The notes below the pieces were generated by a model, which saw nothing but the letters and a program-made list of their open reading frames with translations, was not told the DNA's origin and did not search any database. Position numbers and translations under genes: made by a program. Below are positions 7,795 to 19,696 of a stretch of DNA of 64,000 nucleotides, one piece after another. Every line of letters begins with the position of its first letter. Within the stretch, counting starts at the first letter, position 1. The DNA is taken from positions 308,174 to 372,173 of IMG/VR virus record IMGVR_UViG_3300043410_001892. One strand, given 5' to 3'. This DNA comes from a virus.

Positions 7795-9009
7795 TCACTG
7801 ATTATAAAGTAAAGTTAGACTAAAATTAGTACCTGCTCCTGCCACTACGCTAACCGTAAGTCGATCATTTGTATTGATACCAATTTGTAAACCAGTGTAC
7901 ATTGCTGTAATATTTGGTGCGTCAATTTGAAAAAATTGAACTAAGTCACCGCTTTTATATAATCCAACCATTATTTGTGAGGTTGTCATATTACCAACTG
8001 TTAGCTGTACAGATGTTATTAGTGAAGTAGCAACTGGAACAAAAATTGCACTTCCTAAAAGTGGTGCATGGAATTCTCCTAATATATTAAATGTTTTAAT
8101 TATAACAGGTGGGACATTATTTAAATCTTCGTAACTACCAGTTTTTGCTACAGTTGATAATCCTAAATTTGTAAATGCATTTAATTTTTCAGTATCTGAC
8201 AGATTTTGATTATTAACATCATATCTTATTGATGCAGTTACAAATTCAGTATATTCTAATCCATCTGCAGTAGAATTAACTCTTAAAACATTACCAGCTG
8301 CCCCGATTGGTAATGTAGTCATCTCATTATTAAGAGAACCAATTAGTATATCATTGGGATTAATAGATGAAAGACCAGTACCACCGTATTGTGGAGTTAT
8401 AACAGTACCATTCCACTCACCGGTAGTAATTGTTCCTAATGTAGTGATACTTGTTTGACCAACGTATGTGCTATCGATATCAATATTGGTAGTTGATACT
8501 ACAATTCGTCCATCAGTTCCTGCTTGTATTATCCCAGGAGGTCCTTGTTCACCTGTTGCACCGGTTGCACCAGTTGGTCCTTGTACACCAGGTACACCTT
8601 GTGGACCAGTATCACCTGTATCACCTTTAGGTCCTTGTAATCCGGTTTCTCCTTGTGGTCCAGTTAAACCAATAGGACCTTGATCACCAGTATCTCCCTT
8701 AGGTCCCTGTAAACCAGTTTCTCCTTGTGGTCCAGCAGGTCCAGTTTCACCTGTATCACCCTTAGGTCCTTGTAATCCAGTTTCACCTTGTGGTCCAGCA
8801 GGTCCAGTTTCACCTTGTGGACCAGTTGCACCCGGAATACCTTGTCCACCTGTTGAATATGGTAAATCATTCCATCGATGAATTCCATCACCAATCTTAA
8901 ATTTACCACCTTGATCTAATTCAATTGCTAATTCACCTTCAGCAAGAAGTGGATTATAATAAGTCCAGTCTGCCGCGAGTCCTCGCCGTAGTTGTAGCTG
9001 ATTAGCCAT
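7795..9009 (-). CDS. Collagen-like tail fibre protein (404 aa)
   Basis: The N-terminus (residues 1-55, [10 protein letters not shown]...[11 protein letters not shown]...KIGDG) matches the phage-fibre attachment domain seen in Mtd-type and other tail proteins. Residues about 57-160 are continuous Gly-X-Y collagen repeats ([16 protein letters not shown] type). The C-terminal 240 residues are beta-rich and probably form the distal trimeric head. The start overlaps the end of the upstream collagen-like gene by 8 nt, so the two are translationally coupled. Likely a host-recognition fibre; receptor unknown. Confidence 0.85.
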
Positions 9010-11056
9010 TTATTCCTCCAAAATCAAAGGTTACTAATCCGCCGTATACTGAATTAGGTCCACCTCCGTCTATCATAAATTGTGATAAATCACCTTTAGG
9101 TCCTTGTGGTCCAATCGGACCAATATCACCTGTGTCGCCTTTAGGTCCTTGCGGTCCTACAGCTCCGTCTATTCCTTGTCTTCCGTCAACACCGGCAGGT
9201 CCTTGTTCTCCCTGAGGTCCTTGTGGACCAATTGGTCCAGTTTCACCTTGAATTCCTTGAATTCCTTGTGGACCAGTTTCGCCTTGAATTCCTTGAATTC
9301 CTTGTGGACCTTGATCTCCGGTATCGCCTTTAGGTCCCTGTATGCCTTGAATCCCTTGTGGACCAGTTAAACCAATTTCTCCTTTAAGACCTTGTTCGCC
9401 TTGTGGTCCTTGTGGCCCAATCGGTCCAGTTAAACCAGTTAAACCACGTGGTCCTTGTTCTCCCTGAAGGCCTTGAGGTCCTTGGTCGCCTTGTGGACCA
9501 ATTAATCCTGCAGGTCCTTGTGGTCCTTGTGGCCCAGTTAAACCATCTGCTCCCTGTGGTCCTTGTGGTCCAACAGCACCAGTTAAACCAGTAGCGCCAG
9601 TTAGTCCGCGTTCTCCCTGAAGTCCCTGCGGACCTTGCGGTCCTTGTGGACCAGTTAAACCAGTAGCACCTGTTGCACCAGTTAACCCCTGTGGTCCTTG
9701 AGCACCTTGTTCGCCTTGAGGACCAGTAGCACCAGTTAAACCACGTAGACCTTGCGGTCCTGTTGGTCCAATTTCTCCTTGTGGTCCTTGTATACCTTGA
9801 GCACCAGTTAATCCAGTTAAACCACGTTCCCCTTGTATACCTTGATCGCCTTGTGGTCCTTGTGGTCCAACAGCACCAGTAGCACCGGTAGCACCAGTTA
9901 GGCCACGCTCTCCTTGTATACCTTGCGGTCCTTGTGGTCCAACAGGACCAGTTGCGCCAGTTGCTCCTGTAGCGCCAGTTGCACCTGGTAATCCGTCTGC
10001 ACCTGCAGGGCCTTGTGGTCCAACTGCGCCAGTAGCACCAGTTAAACCAGTTAGTCCGCGTTCGCCTTGTAATCCCTGCGGTCCTTGTTCGCCTTGTGGT
10101 CCGGCAGCACCAGTTAAACCAGTTAGTCCGCGTTCTCCCTGCGGTCCTTGTGGTCCAATTGGTCCTTGTTCACCAGTAGCACCAGTTAAGCCGCGCGGTC
10201 CAGTCGGTCCTGCCGGTCCGGTATCGCCTTGTATACCTTGTGGACCAGTTGCGCCAGTAGCACCAGTTAAACCAGTAGCGCCAGTTAACCCCTGTGGTCC
10301 TTGTAATCCCTGTGGTCCTTGTGGGCCAACAGCACCAGTTGCACCAGTAGCGCCAGTAGCGCCTGGTAATCCGTCTGCACCTGCAGGTCCTTGTGGTCCA
10401 GTTGGTCCAGTTAAGCCAGTTAACCCACGTGGTCCTTGATCACCGGTATCACCTTTAGGTCCAGTTGGTCCAGTTAAACCAGTAGCACCAGTAGCACCAG
10501 TTAGTCCTCGTTCCCCTTGTATACCTTGAGGTCCGTCAGGTCCAGTTGGTCCGGTTAAACCAGTTAAACCACGTGGTCCTTGATCGCCTTGAGGTCCTTG
10601 TGGACCAGTTAAGCCTTGAGGTCCTTGTGGTCCAGCTGGGCCAGCTGGCCCTTGTGGTCCTGTAGTATATTCGACGCTAATAGTTCCGTCTGCGCTAACA
10701 GTAATACCAGAACCAATTTTAACACCGCCGAGGATAGATGAAGTAGCAATAGGTGTAGCAGATGCAGATCGCCATGTATTTGCATATCGGATATTTAGAT
10801 TGCCAGTTGTGGTATTCCACCACAAAGTACCTGGATCTAAAGAAGATGGAGGAGTGCTTGAAACGTAGATTGTTGCGTTGCCGGAACCCCCTCCACCTCC
10901 AGATCCTCCAAAGGTGAGTGGAATACCGCCAAGCGTTATACCGTCAGATAATCGTAAATCGCCGACATCTTCGTTATAAAATATAATACCTTTTTCGCCG
11001 ACAAAGTCGTCGGCATCAATTTTAACACGTCCTGATCTAATCTTTTGAGTGGTCAT
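9002..11056 (-). CDS. Long collagen-like tail fibre protein (684 aa)
   Basis: Residues 1-55 ([28 protein letters not shown], interrupted, then LSDGITLGG) form an N-terminal virion-binding domain. A Gly-rich hinge and a short beta domain follow. About 500 residues of uninterrupted Gly-X-Y triplets then run from roughly residue 130 to 640, rich in GPQGPQG, GERGLTG and GATGATG. The tail after the collagen is only about 30 residues, so the tip may be contributed by the overlapping downstream fibre. Repetitive DNA here makes length variation by slippage or recombination likely. Confidence 0.85.
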
Positions 11057-11106
11057 ACATGTATTTATTGTAGATTATCAAAAGATTAAGCAGGGTGTAT
11101 AAGTAA

Positions 11107-11340
11107 CTAGCGACGTCGTTTAGCTAGAATCGCTTCTTTTTCTAATTTTTTACGGTAACGTGCTTTTGCAGCGCCTGCTTCACGTTTACGCTTTGTAGTG
11201 GGTTTTTCGTAGAATTCTTTCTTACGTAGAGTTTCTAATTTATTTGAATCTTCAACTTTGCGTTTAAATCTACGCAATGCTTGTGTAATATTTTCATTTT
11301 CTCTTACTGAAACTTTAACTTTATTCTGCAGTGTTATCAT
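11107..11340 (-). CDS. rpsU: Ribosomal protein S21 (bS21) homologue
   Basis: The 77-aa basic protein carries the S21 core: [19 protein letters not shown], then [16 protein letters not shown]. bS21 sits on the 30S subunit near the anti-Shine-Dalgarno and is the ribosomal protein most often found in phages. I chose the ATG at 11340 because GAGGAAG lies just upstream; longer in-frame starts lie inside the preceding gene. The start overlaps the upstream stop by 20 nt. It could bias host ribosomes toward phage mRNAs. Confidence 0.95.
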
Positions 11341-11736: not shown

Positions 11737-12264
11737 CTATGTAGTGATTAGTTTTGTTTTGTATTTAGTGTAAAAACCTTTCACTGTTAAAGAAACCTTT
11801 TGAACACCGGTAATTCCAATTCTTTTAGCAGCTTCTTTTGAAAGATCAATGATTCTGCCTTTTAAAAATGGTCCGCGGTCATTGATTCTAACTAGTACTG
11901 ATTTATGATTTACATCATTAGTTACTTCAACAACTGTGCCAAATGGTAATGTCTTATGTGCTGCAGTTAGTTCTTTTGGACTAAAATATTCTCCGTTTGC
12001 AGTTTTTGGTCTGCGACGATATCTTGGTCCTGATTCATAACCATACCAGCTTGCATAACCATTCATGCTATCTCCAGATGCTAACGGATTTCTGTGTTTA
12101 TGTTTTCTGTGTTTTTTGAATAATGCAATTTTATGTTTCATTTTTGCATTGTGTTTAACTTGTTCGACATGTTTTTCGTTGACATGTTTTTGTGACGCAT
12201 CTACTGGAAATGCGGTTGAAATTAATGAGAGGGCAAGAAGCCCTATTGGTAGTGAATTTTTCAT
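11737..12264 (-). CDS. RlpA-like secreted double-psi beta-barrel protein
   Basis: 175 aa. [20 protein letters not shown] is a clear signal peptide. A basic Lys/His-rich linker follows, then an RlpA-like domain with [20 protein letters not shown]-x-V-x-INDRGPF and GRIIDLS. RlpA proteins bind or cleave peptidoglycan lacking stem peptides. The ATG at 12264 is preceded by AAAGGAG; longer in-frame ORFs run through the structured leader and lack the signal peptide at their start. Probable role: host cell-wall attack or remodelling at lysis. The catalytic Asp (NDRGP) is present. Confidence 0.88.
11762..11768 (-). promoter_or_regulatory. Candidate T4-like late promoter box
   Basis: Minus-strand CTAAATA plus C lies 34 nt before the start of the 135-aa gene, inside the 3' end of the RlpA-like gene. 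It could drive the unknown gene plus rpsU. Confidence 0.4.
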
Positions 12265-12575
12265 ATTTTCTCCTTTCACTTGGTGTGCTCTGTCACAGCC
12301 GCACATTACATTAAGGGAGTAAACTGCACGAGGTTCTTCGAACCCATTTGTTCGTGACGTCTTCTCCATCAGCCACAACATTAAAACTGCAAATGTTGTA
12401 CCTTTGGCAAGCCTGGCTTCCCGAATTTCGCGGGTTTCTACTTTGGCCAAGACTCGCAGGATTGATTACATCTCTCAATCCAACTATCTTAGTTTCTCTC
12501 GAAACATATAATATATAGTATAAATTGATAAAATACAATTTAAAATATGGTTTTTTATCTAATTAACTTATACTT
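12265..12575 (-). ncRNA. Long structured 5' leader of the rlpA-like gene
   Basis: About 310 nt lie between a strong promoter and the rlpA-like start. Read on the minus strand it can form many hairpins: GGATTGA/TCAATCC, CCCG/CGGG, AACATT/AATGTT, a CACGA/TCGTG stem enclosing GGTTC/GAACC, and GTGC/GCAC just before the ribosome binding site. Base composition is visibly richer in G and C than the flanks. It resembles a riboswitch or other cis-acting RNA, but I cannot match a known class. Confidence 0.45.
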
Positions 12576-12647: not shown

Positions 12648-13550
12648 ATGAAAATACATGAATTAATGGAAGCACGTTTGCAAGATTCACTCCCTCATCT
12701 TCTTACAAGCGTAGCATCTTTAGAAAAACTATATACAATTACCATGCCAGGCATTCTTGCTGATTTTACAAGAAAAATGCGTGATACTGGTGCTGCTACT
12801 GATAGTTTTGGTCGTGGTATGGAAAATAGAGATATTAGAACTGTTACGATGCAACTTGGTGCTGCAAAATCAAAATGGTTTACTGAAAATTATTTTTCAT
12901 ATTCTAAGAGTAGAAGAGAGTTATCAGGGACTGGGCTAAAAACTGCATTAGTGGAATTATCAAAATTACCTGAATTACAAAGCATTCCTGCTATAAAAAC
13001 ATTAGCACATTTAGATGTTAACATAAATCCAAATAATAAATCTAAAGAAGCTGACATTATGTCATATGGTGAGTTAATGGGTGAGATTGAATTAGAGTTA
13101 CCAGAAATTTTAGAAAAAATTGGTAAAATTATTGGAAATCCGGATTTAACTGCTAGAGGAACAAGGTTAGATACTACTATCGGATCTTGGTATAAAAAGA
13201 AAGATGCTACTGTTCCAAAAGTTCATCAGGATGCAGACAAAATAGTAAAACGTGGTGATGCATATCATACTCATCGTAAAGATAGTAATTTAGGTAAAGG
13301 TGACATCATGTCGCCAGCTGAAAAACCTGGCAAATCTGGCAATCATAGTCAAAATATGAGTGCTGCTCAACAAGCAATTAATCAAGGTTTTGAATTACTT
13401 AAAAAGCATGGTATTAGAGATCATGAATTACATGCAATTAGACAAAAAGTTCAAAAAAGTGATAATCAACTAATGGCCTTACTGCAAGTATTTCAAGAGT
13501 TTGGAATCAACCCAAATGCGTTAATGGAAGCTTGGTTAAGAACTTATTAA
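12648..13550 (+). CDS. Putative internal/head-associated protein (300 aa)
   Basis: Begins MKIHELMEARL, matching the MK-x-x-E-hydrophobic-x-E pattern of T4-like capsid-targeting sequences with a possible prohead-protease cut after LME. The rest is mostly helical, with a His/Lys-rich middle (residues about 190-215) and a glutamine-rich helical C-terminus. It stands alone on the plus strand between divergent genes and ends at a strong bidirectional terminator. No enzyme motif. Virion location is inferred from the N-terminus only. Confidence 0.75.
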   Translation: MKIHELMEARLQDSLPHLLTSVASLEKLYTITMPGILADFTRKMRDTGAATDSFGRGMENRDIRTVTMQLGAAKSKWFTENYFSYSKSRRELSGTGLKTALVELSKLPELQSIPAIKTLAHLDVNINPNNKSKEADIMSYGELMGEIELELPEILEKIGKIIGNPDLTARGTRLDTTIGSWYKKKDATVPKVHQDADKIVKRGDAYHTHRKDSNLGKGDIMSPAEKPGKSGNHSQNMSAAQQAINQGFELLKKHGIRDHELHAIRQKVQKSDNQLMALLQVFQEFGINPNALMEAWLRTY

Positions 13551-13551
13551 G

Positions 13552-13578
13552 AAAAAAGGGCTAATTAGCCCTTTTTTT
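13552..13578. terminator. Bidirectional Rho-independent terminator
   Basis: AAAAAAGGGCTAATTAGCCC followed by seven Ts: a palindromic stem with A and T runs on both sides. It serves the plus-strand 300-aa gene and the minus-strand operon that ends with pqqA; the pqqA stop codon overlaps its edge. Confidence 0.9.
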
Positions 13579-13651
13579 AACGATTACAAATATACATAGT
13601 GACTTCAAAGCCAAACCGTATATCATTATAACTTGGTGTTTCCCATTTCAT
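13577..13651 (-). CDS. pqqA: PqqA, PQQ precursor peptide (24 aa)
   Basis: The 24-aa peptide starts MKWETPSYND and ends FGFEVTMYICNR. PqqA is the ribosomal substrate from which PqqE, PqqD and partners build pyrroloquinoline quinone by linking a Glu and a Tyr in an E-x-x-x-Y motif. Here these are E16 and Y20, with the family's G-x-E-V-T-x-Y context, an N-terminal W and the usual length (22-29 aa). AAAGGAG lies 8 nt upstream of the ATG. It is the last cistron of the nrdA-to-PAAR operon, and its stop abuts the terminator. No pqqB-E is in the window, so host enzymes would have to process it. Confidence 0.88.
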   Translation of the reverse strand: MKWETPSYNDIRFGFEVTMYICNR

Positions 13652-13664
13652 AACTTAATCTCCT

Positions 13665-13931
13665 TTATCCGCCTGCAAATACGTTACCTGAACCGGTTGC
13701 AGGATGTGCGCATGATGCTTTATCACCCTCGCGACATACTCCAATATTGTTAGCAAACACTGTTCCGCTATGGTCAACCATTACAGGTGACGCATGTGGT
13801 GCATCACCGTGACCTTGAATGTGAGCACCTTGTACTGTAATAGGTTTGTTATTAACAAATACAGTAGGTGCTAACGCTTCAATGATTGTGCCACCTGCGG
13901 TATCTTGATTTACTCTCGAAACCCCAGGCAT
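13665..13931 (-). CDS. PAAR-domain spike-tip protein
   Basis: 88 aa, Gly/His/Ala-rich, with PAAR features: ITVQGAHIQGHGDAPHASPVM, here split as ITVQGAHIQG and HGDAPHASP, then a Cys/His end (CREGDKASCAHPATGSGNVFAGG, likewise split at DKA). PAAR proteins cap the membrane-piercing spike of contractile tails and bind a metal through His/Cys (compare T4 gp5.4). It overlaps the upstream gene by 1 nt and lies 13 nt before pqqA. This supports a myovirus-type tail. Confidence 0.9.
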   Translation of the reverse strand: MPGVSRVNQDTAGGTIIEALAPTVFVNNKPITVQGAHIQGHGDAPHASPVMVDHSGTVFANNIGVCREGDKASCAHPATGSGNVFAGG

Positions 13932-14218
13932 TAGGTTATAATACCAGTTGTTGCTTTAGTATAAGAACTTGCTGATTCTTTTTCAGTTGGTTCCATTACT
14001 ACTACAGTAGATGCAGCAATTTTAACTACTTTATCAGGATCAACTGTAAACAAGTATGGTGCCATTCCAATACCTGATTGTGTATTAGCTAACACACGAG
14101 GTTTTGAAACTTTAATATATTTGTCTGTTTCTTCAACCAATGAGGCTAATAGTTCTTCACCAGAAGTTAATTTAATTGTAACTACATCACCTACTGAAAC
14201 GCCTTTATCTATAATCAT
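13931..14218 (-). CDS. Small beta-rich phage protein, possibly Sm-like
   Basis: 95 aa. The first 45 residues (VGDVVTIKLTSGEELLASLVEE) read like the Sm1 strand pattern of an Sm/LSm-like barrel: V-x-V-x-L-x-SGEE-hydrophobic. The C-terminal part is Ser/Thr-rich. It overlaps glutaredoxin by 4 nt and PAAR by 1 nt. Function unknown; the fold suggestion is weak. Confidence 0.75.
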   Translation of the reverse strand: MIIDKGVSVGDVVTIKLTSGEELLASLVEETDKYIKVSKPRVLANTQSGIGMAPYLFTVDPDKVVKIAASTVVVMEPTEKESASSYTKATTGIIT

Positions 14219-14448
14219 ACTTTACCTTTTAAATAATTTTGTAATTCTGAAAAACCACCTACATATTGACCATCAATTTTAATTTGTGGTACTGAACGTG
14301 CAGCTGGTACTTCTTCTAATAAATGTTCTTTTGTCCATCCGCCATCTGACAGATTTCTTTCTTCAAACTTAATGTTTTTCATTAGTAACAAGTTCTTAGC
14401 TTGTGTACATTGCGGGCACTGGTCCTTGCTCCATATAATTGCTGTCAT
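14215..14448 (-). CDS. Glutaredoxin
   Basis: 77 aa, thioredoxin fold. CPQC active site at residues 12-15 after IIWSKDQ, the cis-Pro segment SVPQIKI, and GGFSEL near the C-terminus for glutathione binding. Likely re-reduces the phage ribonucleotide reductase encoded upstream in the same operon. Overlaps both neighbours (ATGA and TAATG junctions). Confidence 0.93.
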   Translation of the reverse strand: MTAIIWSKDQCPQCTQAKNLLLMKNIKFEERNLSDGGWTKEHLLEEVPAARSVPQIKIDGQYVGGFSELQNYLKGKV

Positions 14449-15128: not shown

Positions 15129-15323
15129 TTACGGCTTTTCTTCAAAAATCTGTCTGAGCGCATTCTTCATGGCCTCCTGTTCTTTTTCAGTCCATAAACC
15201 AGCTGATGGAGTTTTTCCTTCTTTAACCATTGCGCAAGGGCATACAGGATCATTGCCCTGCGGTCCCATGCATGCACAAATCTTAAGATCTTTGTATTCG
15301 TTATAAGGCTGGTAGTTCGTCAT
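15129..15323 (-). CDS. Small Cys-rich protein downstream of nrdB
   Basis: 64 aa with four cysteines in CACMGPQGNDPVCPCAM, suggesting a metal site or redox site, followed by an acidic amphipathic helix. It overlaps the 3' end of nrdB by 23 nt, consistent with coupled translation. Function unknown; association with ribonucleotide reduction is inferred from position. Confidence 0.65.
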   Translation of the reverse strand: MTNYQPYNEYKDLKICACMGPQGNDPVCPCAMVKEGKTPSAGLWTEKEQEAMKNALRQIFEEKP

Positions 15324-16395
15324 AATTTAATTCATCCGACATTACACCTACTACATAGTTGACACTTTCAGATTCTTGTAAAGCAGTTTGCTTTTTACTC
15401 GGATCACTATGCTTGTTAAACCATGGAATAGGAGTTGATTTAGGTGCATGTTCACGATACTTAATGCCAACTTCTTTTAAAGCGTGTGCAGCAGTATAGT
15501 CAACAAATTCTTTTAAGATGTTAGCGTTAAGTCCAATTACTGGTCCTTTTAAGAATAAGTAATCTGCCCATTCTTTTTCTTCGCGAATAACATCTAAGTA
15601 CATATTATACACTAATTCCTCGCATTCTGCTTTAATTTCGGCAAAACGCGGGTCATCTTTTATTACCAAATTAATCATGTAAGCAGTCCACTCTTTATGC
15701 AATAATTCATCTTGTAATATAAGTGCAATAATGTTACCATTACCGATGAACAGTTTATTTTCAACCATTGCTAAACTGGTAGCAAACGACACCATAAATC
15801 TTAATGATTCTAATGCGTAGCTGGCATGTAGCGCAAGCCAGATAGCTTTAATGTGTTCTCTTTCAGGTACATAAATGCTAAGTTCGCATTTGCAATTGAT
15901 TATATGTAATTCATTATAGTATCTACCAACACTACTTGCCATATCAACAATTGGTTTAGTATCATGGATAGTGTTAAATATCTCTTTTGGGACATTATAG
16001 ATATTACGAATAATATGACTATAACTACGACTATGAATATTTGATTCAAAAAAGCCCCAGTTAAGCATTAGTAGTTCTGCTTCAGGTACACTAACTACAG
16101 GTGTAAACACTTGTGTAGGACCTCGTCCTTGTAAACTGTCTAATGCAGTTTGTCTTAATAAGTTACTAGTGAAAATATGTTTAACTGCATCACTAGCATC
16201 TTTAAAATCATTAGCGTCTTTGCTTAATGAGATTTCTTCTGGAGTCCAAAAGAAACCTCTAGCAGTTTGCTCATATTTTTGAATTTTTGGATAGCGAACT
16301 TCTTCAAATCTTTGAATGGTAACTGTCCCGTCTAGAAACAATTTTCTAGACAGGTAGTTAGTTTGTTCGCTTAGATTATATTGTTCATCACTCAT
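15301..16395 (-). CDS. nrdB: Ribonucleotide reductase class Ia, small subunit
   Basis: 364 aa, within the NrdB size range. FFESNIHSRSY supplies the iron ligands Glu and His and the radical Tyr (equivalent to E. coli E115, H118, Y122). ALESLRF and QDELLHKEW give the second Glu set and the last His. TALDSLQGRGP is the conserved helix before the site. NrdB makes the diferric-tyrosyl cofactor used by NrdA to convert NDPs to dNDPs for phage DNA synthesis. Two accessory genes and a dismutase gene separate it from nrdA, all in one operon. Confidence 0.97.
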   Translation of the reverse strand: MSDEQYNLSEQTNYLSRKLFLDGTVTIQRFEEVRYPKIQKYEQTARGFFWTPEEISLSKDANDFKDASDAVKHIFTSNLLRQTALDSLQGRGPTQVFTPVVSVPEAELLMLNWGFFESNIHSRSYSHIIRNIYNVPKEIFNTIHDTKPIVDMASSVGRYYNELHIINCKCELSIYVPEREHIKAIWLALHASYALESLRFMVSFATSLAMVENKLFIGNGNIIALILQDELLHKEWTAYMINLVIKDDPRFAEIKAECEELVYNMYLDVIREEKEWADYLFLKGPVIGLNANILKEFVDYTAAHALKEVGIKYREHAPKSTPIPWFNKHSDPSKKQTALQESESVNYVVGVMSDELNYDELPAL

Positions 16396-16655: not shown

Positions 16656-16839
16656 TTATAATCCTTATTGTACTTGTTTCATCTAATGCATACCACGCAC
16701 TTTCAAAATATTTCGTTATGTCATTTAATGTTTCTTCTGGCATACGCATTACCCATTCGTTTGTTTCAGCATCATGTTTAAGTGGTAATTCGATTTTTAA
16801 ATTATGCCGCATTGATACTACTAATTTTTTATCTTTCAT
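16648..16839 (-). CDS. Small protein of unknown function
   Basis: 63 aa from the ATG at 16839, which overlaps the stop of the dismutase gene as ATGA; an upstream in-frame ATG at 16878 would lie inside that gene. Sequence includes RHNLKIELPLKHDAETNEW and an aromatic FESAWYALDE. Not recognised. Confidence 0.6.
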   Translation of the reverse strand: MKDKKLVVSMRHNLKIELPLKHDAETNEWVMRMPEETLNDITKYFESAWYALDETSTIRIIND

Positions 16840-17384
16840 AACGTTTTGTTTACCTGTTCCCAGTTTATTATTTTCCATTGATTTTCTAAATACTTTTGTT
16901 TATCTGATTGATAGTCTAGTGCCCATGCATGTTCCCACCAGTCAACTAATAATACAATGTCTTTTTTAATAGCATGGTTAGTTATAGTTTTAATTTGTCC
17001 ATTTTTAGCAAGATAGACCCAACCACTTCCTTGTATGCCCATTGCTACTTTTAAAAACTCTTCTTTGAATTTATCAAAGGTTTTATAATGGGTTTCAATG
17101 AGCTCAAGTGCCTTGCCAACTGGCTTGTTTAGTTTACCAGTTGACTCTTGATATTGCTGGAACAAAATGTTGTGTAAAAATACACCTGCTTCGTTAAACA
17201 CCGGATCACCTTCACCTGCATTATACCGTTTTGCGTATGTTTTAGCAAGATGTTCGTAATGGTAATCTAATGTTTCTTTTGATATAGCAGGACTTAACTC
17301 ATTCATCCCGTATGGCAGGGCATCTATTTTTAAAGATGCCGGTCTACCTTCAGTTATAAATTGTTTAATGAAGCTATAACTCAT
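16836..17384 (-). CDS. Fe/Mn superoxide dismutase family protein
   Basis: 182 aa. Ligands of the family are visible: H in LDYHYEHLAKTYAKRYN, H in FLHNILF, and D plus H in LLVDWWEHAW. The flanking QGSGWVYLAK and ALDYQSDKQKYLENQWKIIN are family signatures. The second-sphere site is odd. FeSOD Gln (in AAQVWNH) is replaced by Gly (NEAGVFLH), and the MnSOD Gln near TxNQD reads TNHAI, giving His. The start at 17384 overlaps the nrdA stop as ATGA. Likely role: protection of the radical enzyme or host from superoxide. Metal preference cannot be read. Confidence 0.9.
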   Translation of the reverse strand: MSYSFIKQFITEGRPASLKIDALPYGMNELSPAISKETLDYHYEHLAKTYAKRYNAGEGDPVFNEAGVFLHNILFQQYQESTGKLNKPVGKALELIETHYKTFDKFKEEFLKVAMGIQGSGWVYLAKNGQIKTITNHAIKKDIVLLVDWWEHAWALDYQSDKQKYLENQWKIINWEQVNKTL

Positions 17385-19696
17385 AGCTTGCAAGCCTCGC
17401 ATGATTCATCTTCTTCTTCAATAATTGCACTAGGTAAATCAATTTCAACTTCTTCTTTGCTACCAGTTTTGTCAATTAAACTATAGTAGAATGTCTTAAT
17501 ACCCCAATAGTGCCCTAACATTAAGTTTTTAGCAATTAGTGTAGTTGGTATCTTTCTACCTGGAAAGTGTTTTGGAGAATAGAATGTATCAGTACTAATT
17601 GATTGATCAATGTATGCAGCTAATACAGCCGCAGTTTTCAAATAACCAACACAATCAGTTTGTTCCCACATAAGTTGATATTTGTTTTTCAATTTATGAT
17701 ACTCAGGAACTACTTGTGTAAGTGAACCAGCTTTTGATTCTTTAGTTTGAATAAGCTGCATAGGCATTGCAATACCATTTGTAGAATTGATCACAACACT
17801 TGAACTTTCAACTGGAGCAATAGCACCTACTGTAGCATTTCTTACACCATATTGTTTCATTTCAGTACGTAGTGTTTCCCATGGTAATTCTGGAGTAAAG
17901 TCAGTTAAGTCATTAGCACCGTCTGCACGTAATTCCCATGGAAAGATACCTTGGCCATAACGTGTTTCTGCACTATGTCTGCAAGGACCACGTTCTTTAG
18001 CTAATTCAACTGACATTTCAGTTAAGTAGAAAGTTTGGTGTTCAATCCAGCTTTTAACTTCTGCCAATGCATCAGCATCTCCGTATTTAAAGTTACGTTT
18101 TGCATGCCAATATGCTAAGTTAGTAATACCAATACCTAACGGTCGTATTTCTTGATTGCTTTCATAACTATGTACAGACAAGAAATCTTGATAATCTAAG
18201 ATATTGTTTAAGCTGCGATGTAAAATACGGCAAGCTCTGCGCATATCTTCTGGATTACGGAATGCTCCCCAGTTCATAGACCCCAACGTACACAACGCTA
18301 TGCGTCCACTTGGATCATCCAATCGTTTAAATGCTTTTGTGGGGAGCAATATTTCTTGACATAAGTTACTTTGGTAAATTGTGTGAAAGTACGGATCAAA
18401 TGGTCCTTGCTTGATTACATTGTCAATGAACACTAAGTAAATACGGCCAGTGTCAGTGCGTTCTTTTAAGAGACCACCTTTGAACACCTCCTCGGCTGAC
18501 ATAGTTTTCTTCCGTAGCGTTTTATCTTGCTCATACTGGGTGTAGAGCTTTTCGAACAATAATGTATCAGTGTAAAACGCTTCATATAAGTCTGGTACTT
18601 CATTAGGATCAAAAAATGTTATGTTTTCTTTGTTTTTGAACCTACGCCAAAAGAATGCGTTTAATACAACGCTGTAATCTAAATGACGCACTCGTGTTTC
18701 ATCTGTTCCTTGATTGTTTTTAAGTACGATCAAGTCATCAAATTGATAATGCCAAATTGGAAATGTTATAGTTGCGCTTGCATTGCGTATGCCGCCTTGC
18801 GAGCAACTGCGTAAATCTCCAAACCATTTCTTTAAAAATGGAATCATTCCAGTATGCATGATTTCGCCACCGCGAATTGGGGAGCCCAAGGGGCGTAGTC
18901 GACCAATTTCTAATCCAATCCCCGCACGTTTACTGGCATATTTTGCCATCATTTCACCGCTTGCAAAAATAGAGTCAAGATCATCATCACTACGAATAAG
19001 TACGCAGGAGCTAAACTGTTTAGTTGGTGTGCCAAGCCCAGCAAGAACGGGTGTAGCAAGAGTAAATAAGCCATCGGATGCAGCATTATAATATTCCTTA
19101 ATATATTTCATTCTCGCAGTAGCAGGTTCTTCTTTATGGAAGACTGTTGCAGCAGCAATCATATATCTTACTTGTGGAGTTTCGTAAATATCTTTAGTAG
19201 CACGATTGCGTACTAAGTATTTTTCGATAAGTTGTTCAATAGCAGCATATGAGTAGGTTTCATCTTTTGAATGATCAAGCATGTCATTCATTTTATTCCA
19301 TTCTTCAACAGAATACCAATCAAGTAATTCTGAAGTGTATAGTCCAACTTCAATATTCTTTTTAACTATTGTATATAGATGTGGTGGTTCATATTGACCA
19401 TAGACATCTTTTCGTAGCATGGACAACCTTTGTTTACCTGCTACATATTGATAATTTGTATGACCTACATCAGGATTAGCGTCAACATCAATTAAGTTAA
19501 CAATTGCCCTTAATGTAATTTCGTCAATTTCTTGTGTAGTAATATTATCATAAAATTGTGGTTGGCTTTTGATTTCGATCATTGATTGACTAACATCTGC
19601 AATTCCACTGCAAATCTTTGCAATTTGAGCTTGCCATTTTTCGATTGTAAGATCGGCACAAATTCCGTTGCGTTTAATAACTTTTATTTTATTCAT
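17381..19696 (-). CDS. nrdA: Ribonucleotide reductase class Ia, large subunit
   Basis: 771 aa, full length. An ATP-cone-like N-terminus (IKVIKRNGICADL) is followed by the catalytic barrel: SSCVLI (first redox Cys), SNLCQEI (Asn-Cys-Glu radical site), LCTLGSMNWG (second redox Cys) and PVESSSVVINSTNGI. The C-terminal CEACKL is the swinging-arm thiol pair reduced by glutaredoxin, whose gene lies downstream. First gene of the operon ending at pqqA. Confidence 0.97.
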   Translation of the reverse strand: MNKIKVIKRNGICADLTIEKWQAQIAKICSGIADVSQSMIEIKSQPQFYDNITTQEIDEITLRAIVNLIDVDANPDVGHTNYQYVAGKQRLSMLRKDVYGQYEPPHLYTIVKKNIEVGLYTSELLDWYSVEEWNKMNDMLDHSKDETYSYAAIEQLIEKYLVRNRATKDIYETPQVRYMIAAATVFHKEEPATARMKYIKEYYNAASDGLFTLATPVLAGLGTPTKQFSSCVLIRSDDDLDSIFASGEMMAKYASKRAGIGLEIGRLRPLGSPIRGGEIMHTGMIPFLKKWFGDLRSCSQGGIRNASATITFPIWHYQFDDLIVLKNNQGTDETRVRHLDYSVVLNAFFWRRFKNKENITFFDPNEVPDLYEAFYTDTLLFEKLYTQYEQDKTLRKKTMSAEEVFKGGLLKERTDTGRIYLVFIDNVIKQGPFDPYFHTIYQSNLCQEILLPTKAFKRLDDPSGRIALCTLGSMNWGAFRNPEDMRRACRILHRSLNNILDYQDFLSVHSYESNQEIRPLGIGITNLAYWHAKRNFKYGDADALAEVKSWIEHQTFYLTEMSVELAKERGPCRHSAETRYGQGIFPWELRADGANDLTDFTPELPWETLRTEMKQYGVRNATVGAIAPVESSSVVINSTNGIAMPMQLIQTKESKAGSLTQVVPEYHKLKNKYQLMWEQTDCVGYLKTAAVLAAYIDQSISTDTFYSPKHFPGRKIPTTLIAKNLMLGHYWGIKTFYYSLIDKTGSKEEVEIDLPSAIIEEEDESCEACKL

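Follow-up and report, generated by a model that had tools for sequence, protein, structure and literature searches.

A stand-alone pqqA gene carried by a pmoC-bearing jumbo phage and by other viruses

We examined a 64,000-nucleotide stretch (the window) of a viral record from IMG/VR and found that it carries pqqA, the gene for the precursor that is consumed in making the cofactor PQQ. Analysis of the sequence confirmed the open reading frame as a genuine PqqA, for which crosslinking by PqqE and PqqD is predicted. We consider it probable that this phage-borne pqqA serves a jumbo pmoC-phage of a Methylococcales methanotroph as an auxiliary metabolic gene, feeding consumed precursor to host PqqDE and supporting methanol dehydrogenase. 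Within this reading, we infer the host, that the gene is expressed, that host enzymes process its product, and that metabolism benefits.

The pqqA gene and its operon

The gene lies in the following arrangement, given in window coordinates.

12648–13550, plus strand: convergent phage gene for a 300-aa protein, the synteny anchor
13552–13577, no strand assigned: intrinsic terminator hairpin AAAAAAAGGGCTAATTAGCCCTTTTTT, U-rich, −13.6 kcal/mol, z −4.4, kept in contigs L027 to L031
13577–13651, minus strand: pqqA, 24 codons with ATG start and TAA stop, encoding MKWETPSYNDIRFGFEVTMYICNR, with E16 and Y20 as predicted crosslink residues
13660–13665, minus strand: Shine-Dalgarno sequence AAGGAG, 8 nt 5′ of the ATG, overlapping the PAAR stop codon by one base; same site in contigs L027 and L028
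13665–13931, minus strand: PAAR-motif protein, the upstream neighbor (PF05488, 32.8 bits; phrog_281)
13931–14218, minus strand: 95-aa phage protein with no assigned function (phrog_527)
14215–14448, minus strand: glutaredoxin (PF00462)
15301–16395, minus strand: nrdB, ribonucleotide reductase small chain (PF00268)
16836–17402, minus strand: Fe/Mn superoxide dismutase (PF02777, PF00081)
17381–19696, minus strand: nrdA, ribonucleotide reductase large chain (PF02867, PF00317; tblastn)

PF08042 (PqqA) was the sole Pfam-A family on MKWETPSYNDIRFGFEVTMYICNR, matching residues 2–20 at 44.4 bits (E 1.5e-11) with the whole profile covered; the curated cut-off is 21.1 bits. Residues E16 and Y20 stand in the E-x-x-x-Y spacing. 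A six-frame search of the entire 372,173-base record recovered one PqqA only, the window ORF (42.4 bits, E 5e-11), and the same search found none in 14 control genomes, so a chance match is excluded. No PHROGs family matched the peptide. A sequence-only reading of this DNA had proposed a 24-codon PqqA in a phage, with E16 and Y20 spaced as above, and had named the PF08042 search as a check; the proposal is borne out by the HMM match, the motif, the peptide length, and the closest relatives.

The operon runs in the order nrdA, sod, two small ORFs, nrdB, a 181-aa ORF, glutaredoxin, the 95-aa ORF, PAAR, and pqqA. The hairpin AAAAAAAGGGCTAATTAGCCCTTTTTT closes it and is probably shared with the convergent gene. 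Gene order and hairpin both agree with the earlier proposal that pqqA ends an nrdA-sod-nrdB-grx-PAAR operon, and the strong ribosome binding site described there corresponds to the AAGGAG. A consensus promoter scan gave no score above shuffles, and the AT-rich hairpin at 13552–13577 was missing from the output of the terminator part of that scan. Two side observations concern the neighborhood. The 95-aa protein at 13931–14218 has an additional weak match to phrog_471, labeled methylamine utilization, which is probably a matter of the label only, and a DPBB_1 (lytic transglycolase-like) protein is encoded at 11737–12450 beside collagen-like tail-fiber genes.

The carrier phage, its likely host, and its relatives

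The 372-kb source record is that of a tailed jumbo phage, encoding a tail sheath, a phage DNA polymerase, and virion structural and tail-fiber proteins. Phage genes flank pqqA in it, and a second assembly of the same phage (contig L026) is 100% identical over 16.9 kb including pqqA. Bacterial contamination or misassembly in viral bins does happen, as two INPHARED records named “Acinetobacter phage” that appear bacterial illustrate. Here, however, the flanking genes, the virion and replication proteins of the record, the identical second assembly, and the complete genomes of isolated phages that also carry pqqA make such an error scarcely credible.

The same record encodes PmoC outside the window (PF04896, 404 bits, 256-aa ORF).

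Record positions 249671–250387: pmoC, full-length; a gene for a ClpP-like protease lies nearby

The best PDB matches of this protein were the PmoC chains of 6cxh and 7s4l, which we take to be from gammaproteobacterial methanotrophs, aligned over residues 7–256 with most positions identical. Carrying a full PmoC, the record thus resembles published pmoC-phages of methanotrophs. The nearest cellular pqqA DNA, at 62 of 72 bases, belonged to a Methylomonas metagenome-assembled genome (Methylococcales) and genomes of its family, in which pqqA was found in 139 of 151 sampled genomes and as a single copy in 131. Based on the PmoC relatives and this nearest cellular pqqA DNA, a methanotrophic Methylococcales host is likely.

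The remainder of the PQQ pathway was sought across the entire record. The PqqD HMM gave no match, tblastn with PqqB–E yielded nothing over noise, and neither a methanol dehydrogenase nor another PQQ-binding beta-propeller (PF13360) was found in the record, in keeping with the earlier remark that pqqB–E are missing. PmoA (PF02461) also had no match in the record, in a search that gave no match in control genomes either and so lacked a positive control. A radical SAM match at record position 184047 was considered as PqqE and rejected: judged by its sequence, the 280-aa protein is QueE-like, and a FolE-like GTP cyclohydrolase is encoded close to it. QueE-like radical SAM and FolE-like GTP cyclohydrolase genes (L025, 1180–3257) suggest 7-deazaguanine synthesis by the phage.

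Relatives were gathered with the convergent 300-aa gene as query, which yielded six contigs. In L027 and L028, whose 300-aa neighbor proteins are 46–48% identical to that of the window, pqqA occupies the same slot before the terminator; nrdB of L027 shows 92% identity, and in L028 pqqA lies directly 3′ of a PAAR-type gene. In L029, L030, and L031, the flanking genes and terminator are kept and pqqA is missing. A different PAAR-type gene ends immediately before the terminator in L029, where this longer gene and a 496-aa repetitive protein occupy the pqqA slot (both within 9009–11245), indicating a variable cargo site. Since some close relatives lack pqqA although their flanks are intact, we class it as accessory cargo of a defined slot; such patchy occurrence is normal for auxiliary metabolic genes. 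The sequence-only reading had held that loss or frameshift in relatives would count against the gene. Loss was found, with flanks intact, in three of the contigs; frameshift was not: in this lineage pqqA is either present with an intact frame or absent, and was never seen broken.

Breadth among phages, pairing with pmoC, and selection

To survey isolates and other deposited phages, we searched INPHARED (50,697 phage records) with the peptide by tblastn at E up to 10. The 12 matches comprised nine Methylophilales phages (four Melnitz, Venkman, P19250A, MEP301, MEP401, and MEP402, complete genomes of isolates among them), one uncultured spring podovirus, and two “Acinetobacter phage” contigs. 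We discarded the last two as bacterial; of these, CAKLQF020000010.1 (“Acinetobacter phage MD-2021a”) was examined, has pqqABCDE among metabolic genes, and looks like bacterial chromosome misfiled as phage. None of the INPHARED phages carrying pqqA has it annotated as such, and it goes unmentioned in the main texts describing Melnitz, Venkman, MEP301, and MEP401/402. The MEP301 terminase, used as a query, found no other Methylophilales phage, the MEP401/402 terminase is related to that of vibriophage ICP2, and Melnitz is a T4-type myophage; at least three unrelated phage lineages therefore carry pqqA.

IMG/VR was searched with two degenerate DNA patterns for pqqA. The first gave at least 120 loci, with a PqqA-like peptide in 117 among the matches listed, and a complete scan with the second gave 68 loci, all PqqA when the peptides were judged by eye. 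In all, stand-alone pqqA was found on more than 180 IMG/VR contigs. Within the stretch around each locus, pqqB–E accompanied viral pqqA in 0 of 117 (among the matches listed) and 0 of 68 cases; of bacterial pqqA loci, 68/119 had pqqB–E nearby.

Whole-record searches of 47 viral pmoC records recovered pqqA in five, one being the window's own phage species; most were without it, though the records are fragments. On three contigs (L356/L295, L292/L384, and L306/L407), pqqA follows pmoC on the same strand at a distance of 70–105 bp.

L356, 1498–1626: pqqA directly 3′ of viral pmoC
L292, about 2726–2795: pqqA directly 3′ of viral pmoC
L306, about 2854–2922: pqqA directly 3′ of viral pmoC

A terminator-like hairpin with a T run separates the two genes and could set different expression levels for them. 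In L354/L387, pmoC is followed by pqqA only after about 2 kb. PmoC itself was not found in INPHARED. We also note that the L356 pqqA has lost its stop codon, the frame continuing into the next terminator.

Viral pqqA codons are under purifying selection. Over the first 11 codons, which are those left unfixed by the first search pattern, pS was 0.53 and pN 0.19 in the viral set (pN/pS 0.36); comparing pS and pN over all 18 core codons gave 0.22, a value biased by the pattern, which fixes part of them. One peptide core was encoded by 22 different DNA sequences in 23 copies, and 122 of 126 copies had a Shine-Dalgarno-like site 5′ of the gene. The crosslink residues E and Y were present in 196 of 196 viral loci, an invariance partly built in by a search pattern that fixes both in most loci; they were kept also in copies found via pmoC rather than via the PqqA pattern. 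Between them, a few viral copies vary (VTC, VTT, and VCA), and the remaining PqqA motif is host-like.

These data bear on two further explanations. If pqqA were a neutral or transient passenger from the host, functionless for the phage, its patchy presence among close relatives would be expected, and 24 codons are cheap to carry. Against this, the Shine-Dalgarno sequence and frame are conserved with pN well below pS, the gene recurs in several unrelated phage lineages, all of whose known hosts oxidize C1 compounds, and L027 and L028 hold it in the same slot despite the divergence of the neighboring protein. We regard a passenger as unlikely. As a decoy or inhibitor, viral PqqA would lower the supply of PQQ by occupying PqqD/PqqE or by flooding the pathway, and so divert carbon or avert formaldehyde stress. 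Competition with host PqqA is conceivable for a precursor peptide that stands alone, and the residues that vary between E and Y in a few copies would fit. Yet both crosslink residues are kept, including in copies found through pmoC, the other motif positions are host-like, and the pmoC pairing in some phages argues for promoting the pathway rather than blocking it, which leaves inhibition a distinctly poor prospect.

We tie viral pqqA to C1 oxidizers through the isolates, pmoC, and peptide similarity, the known hosts all being C1 oxidizers. On balance we lean toward a wider reading, held with only slight preference, in which stand-alone pqqA is a near-general auxiliary gene of phages of obligate C1 oxidizers, acquired several times and sometimes as a pmoC-pqqA cassette, which would support both methane-to-methanol and methanol-to-formaldehyde conversion. 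A gene of 72–75 nt is under the usual gene-caller minimum, and together with the lack of a matching PHROGs family this would explain why it has been overlooked.

Proposed role and comparison with known systems

In PQQ synthesis, PqqD delivers PqqA to PqqE, a radical SAM enzyme that links Glu to Tyr. All other residues are discarded, and each cofactor molecule thus costs one PqqA. PQQ is required by methanol dehydrogenases, and a phage supplying its consumed precursor could therefore set the methanol oxidation rate of infected cells. Under the auxiliary-gene reading, the peptide would be translated during infection from the end of the nrdA-to-PAAR transcript, host PqqD would bind it, and host PqqE would crosslink E16 to Y20. 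The crosslinked peptide would then be trimmed, and host PqqB and PqqC would complete PQQ. Since one PqqA is spent per PQQ, supply of the peptide may be stoichiometrically limiting; a further gene copy could relieve this and keep methanol dehydrogenase charged with cofactor, and a strongly translated phage copy could sustain PQQ levels as the host's own expression declines. Phage PmoC would act one step earlier, feeding into the same pathway. The guess of the sequence-only reading that methanol oxidation may be boosted gains weight from two findings, the PmoC encoded by this genome and the hosts of the pqqA-bearing isolate phages; the boost itself we still infer.

Published work on bacteria bears on whether PqqA is limiting. 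In Methylovorus MP688, PqqA availability is reported to be rate-determining (PMC11317620, citing Ge 2015), and methylotroph genomes often have several pqqA copies (PMC9851590). We found five to seven scattered copies each in genomes of Methylobacillus, Methylophilus, and Methylophaga (L167, L177, L176, and L155). In M. extorquens AM1, pqqA was reported dispensable, the orphan copies there being left out of examination (PMC11317620). The orphan pqqA genes of that strain respond to neodymium source, and the authors suggest lanthanide uptake (PMC11317620); phage PqqA might likewise play another role in infected cells, such as lanthanide acquisition. Even this would take effect chiefly by way of lanthanide methanol dehydrogenase, and we consider a separate role very improbable.

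The sequence-only reading knew of no described case with this gene context, but viral pqqA as such has been described: a 2020 study reported it in Lake Baikal VP_266, among phages with viral methanol dehydrogenase (PMC7678222), and a 2026 reservoir study lists it (PMC13188868). PQQ goes unmentioned in a survey of viral genes for methane metabolism (PMC10904782). As a kind, viral pqqA is thus already known; the open-access papers searched yielded no mention of its breadth over phage lineages, of its co-occurrence with pmoC, or of pmoC and pqqA as adjacent pairs. If the breadth is real, a 23–25-codon gene would rank with the most frequent metabolic genes in phages of methylotrophs, linking viruses to the methane sink, and the cultured carriers Melnitz, Venkman, MEP301, MEP401/402, and P19250A make its role directly testable.

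The window copy shares with the PqqA family (PF08042) its length, the W..P and R.GFE.T.Y core, the E/Y crosslink residues, and an HMM score equal to that of host copies, and differs in being phage-encoded and away from any pqqBCDE operon, a neighbor that is customary in the family without being obligatory. In VP_266, phage PqqA was likewise interpreted as enhancing methanol oxidation by methylotrophs (PMC7678222), but VP_266 is a T4-like Methylophilaceae virus with a methanol dehydrogenase, whereas the window phage is a jumbo phage, probably of a methanotroph, with pmoC and no methanol dehydrogenase-type beta-propeller in its record. The published pmoC-phages (2020, PMC7674155) are similar in their large freshwater genomes, pmoC, and inferred methanotroph hosts; their main text is without PQQ, pqqA, or methanol dehydrogenase, whereas the window phage has pqqA too. 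Finally, the orphan pqqA genes of Methylovorus MP688 and M. extorquens are also stand-alone, with pqqBCDE elsewhere and copy number acting as dosage, but those genes are chromosomal, while the pqqA of the window is delivered at infection.
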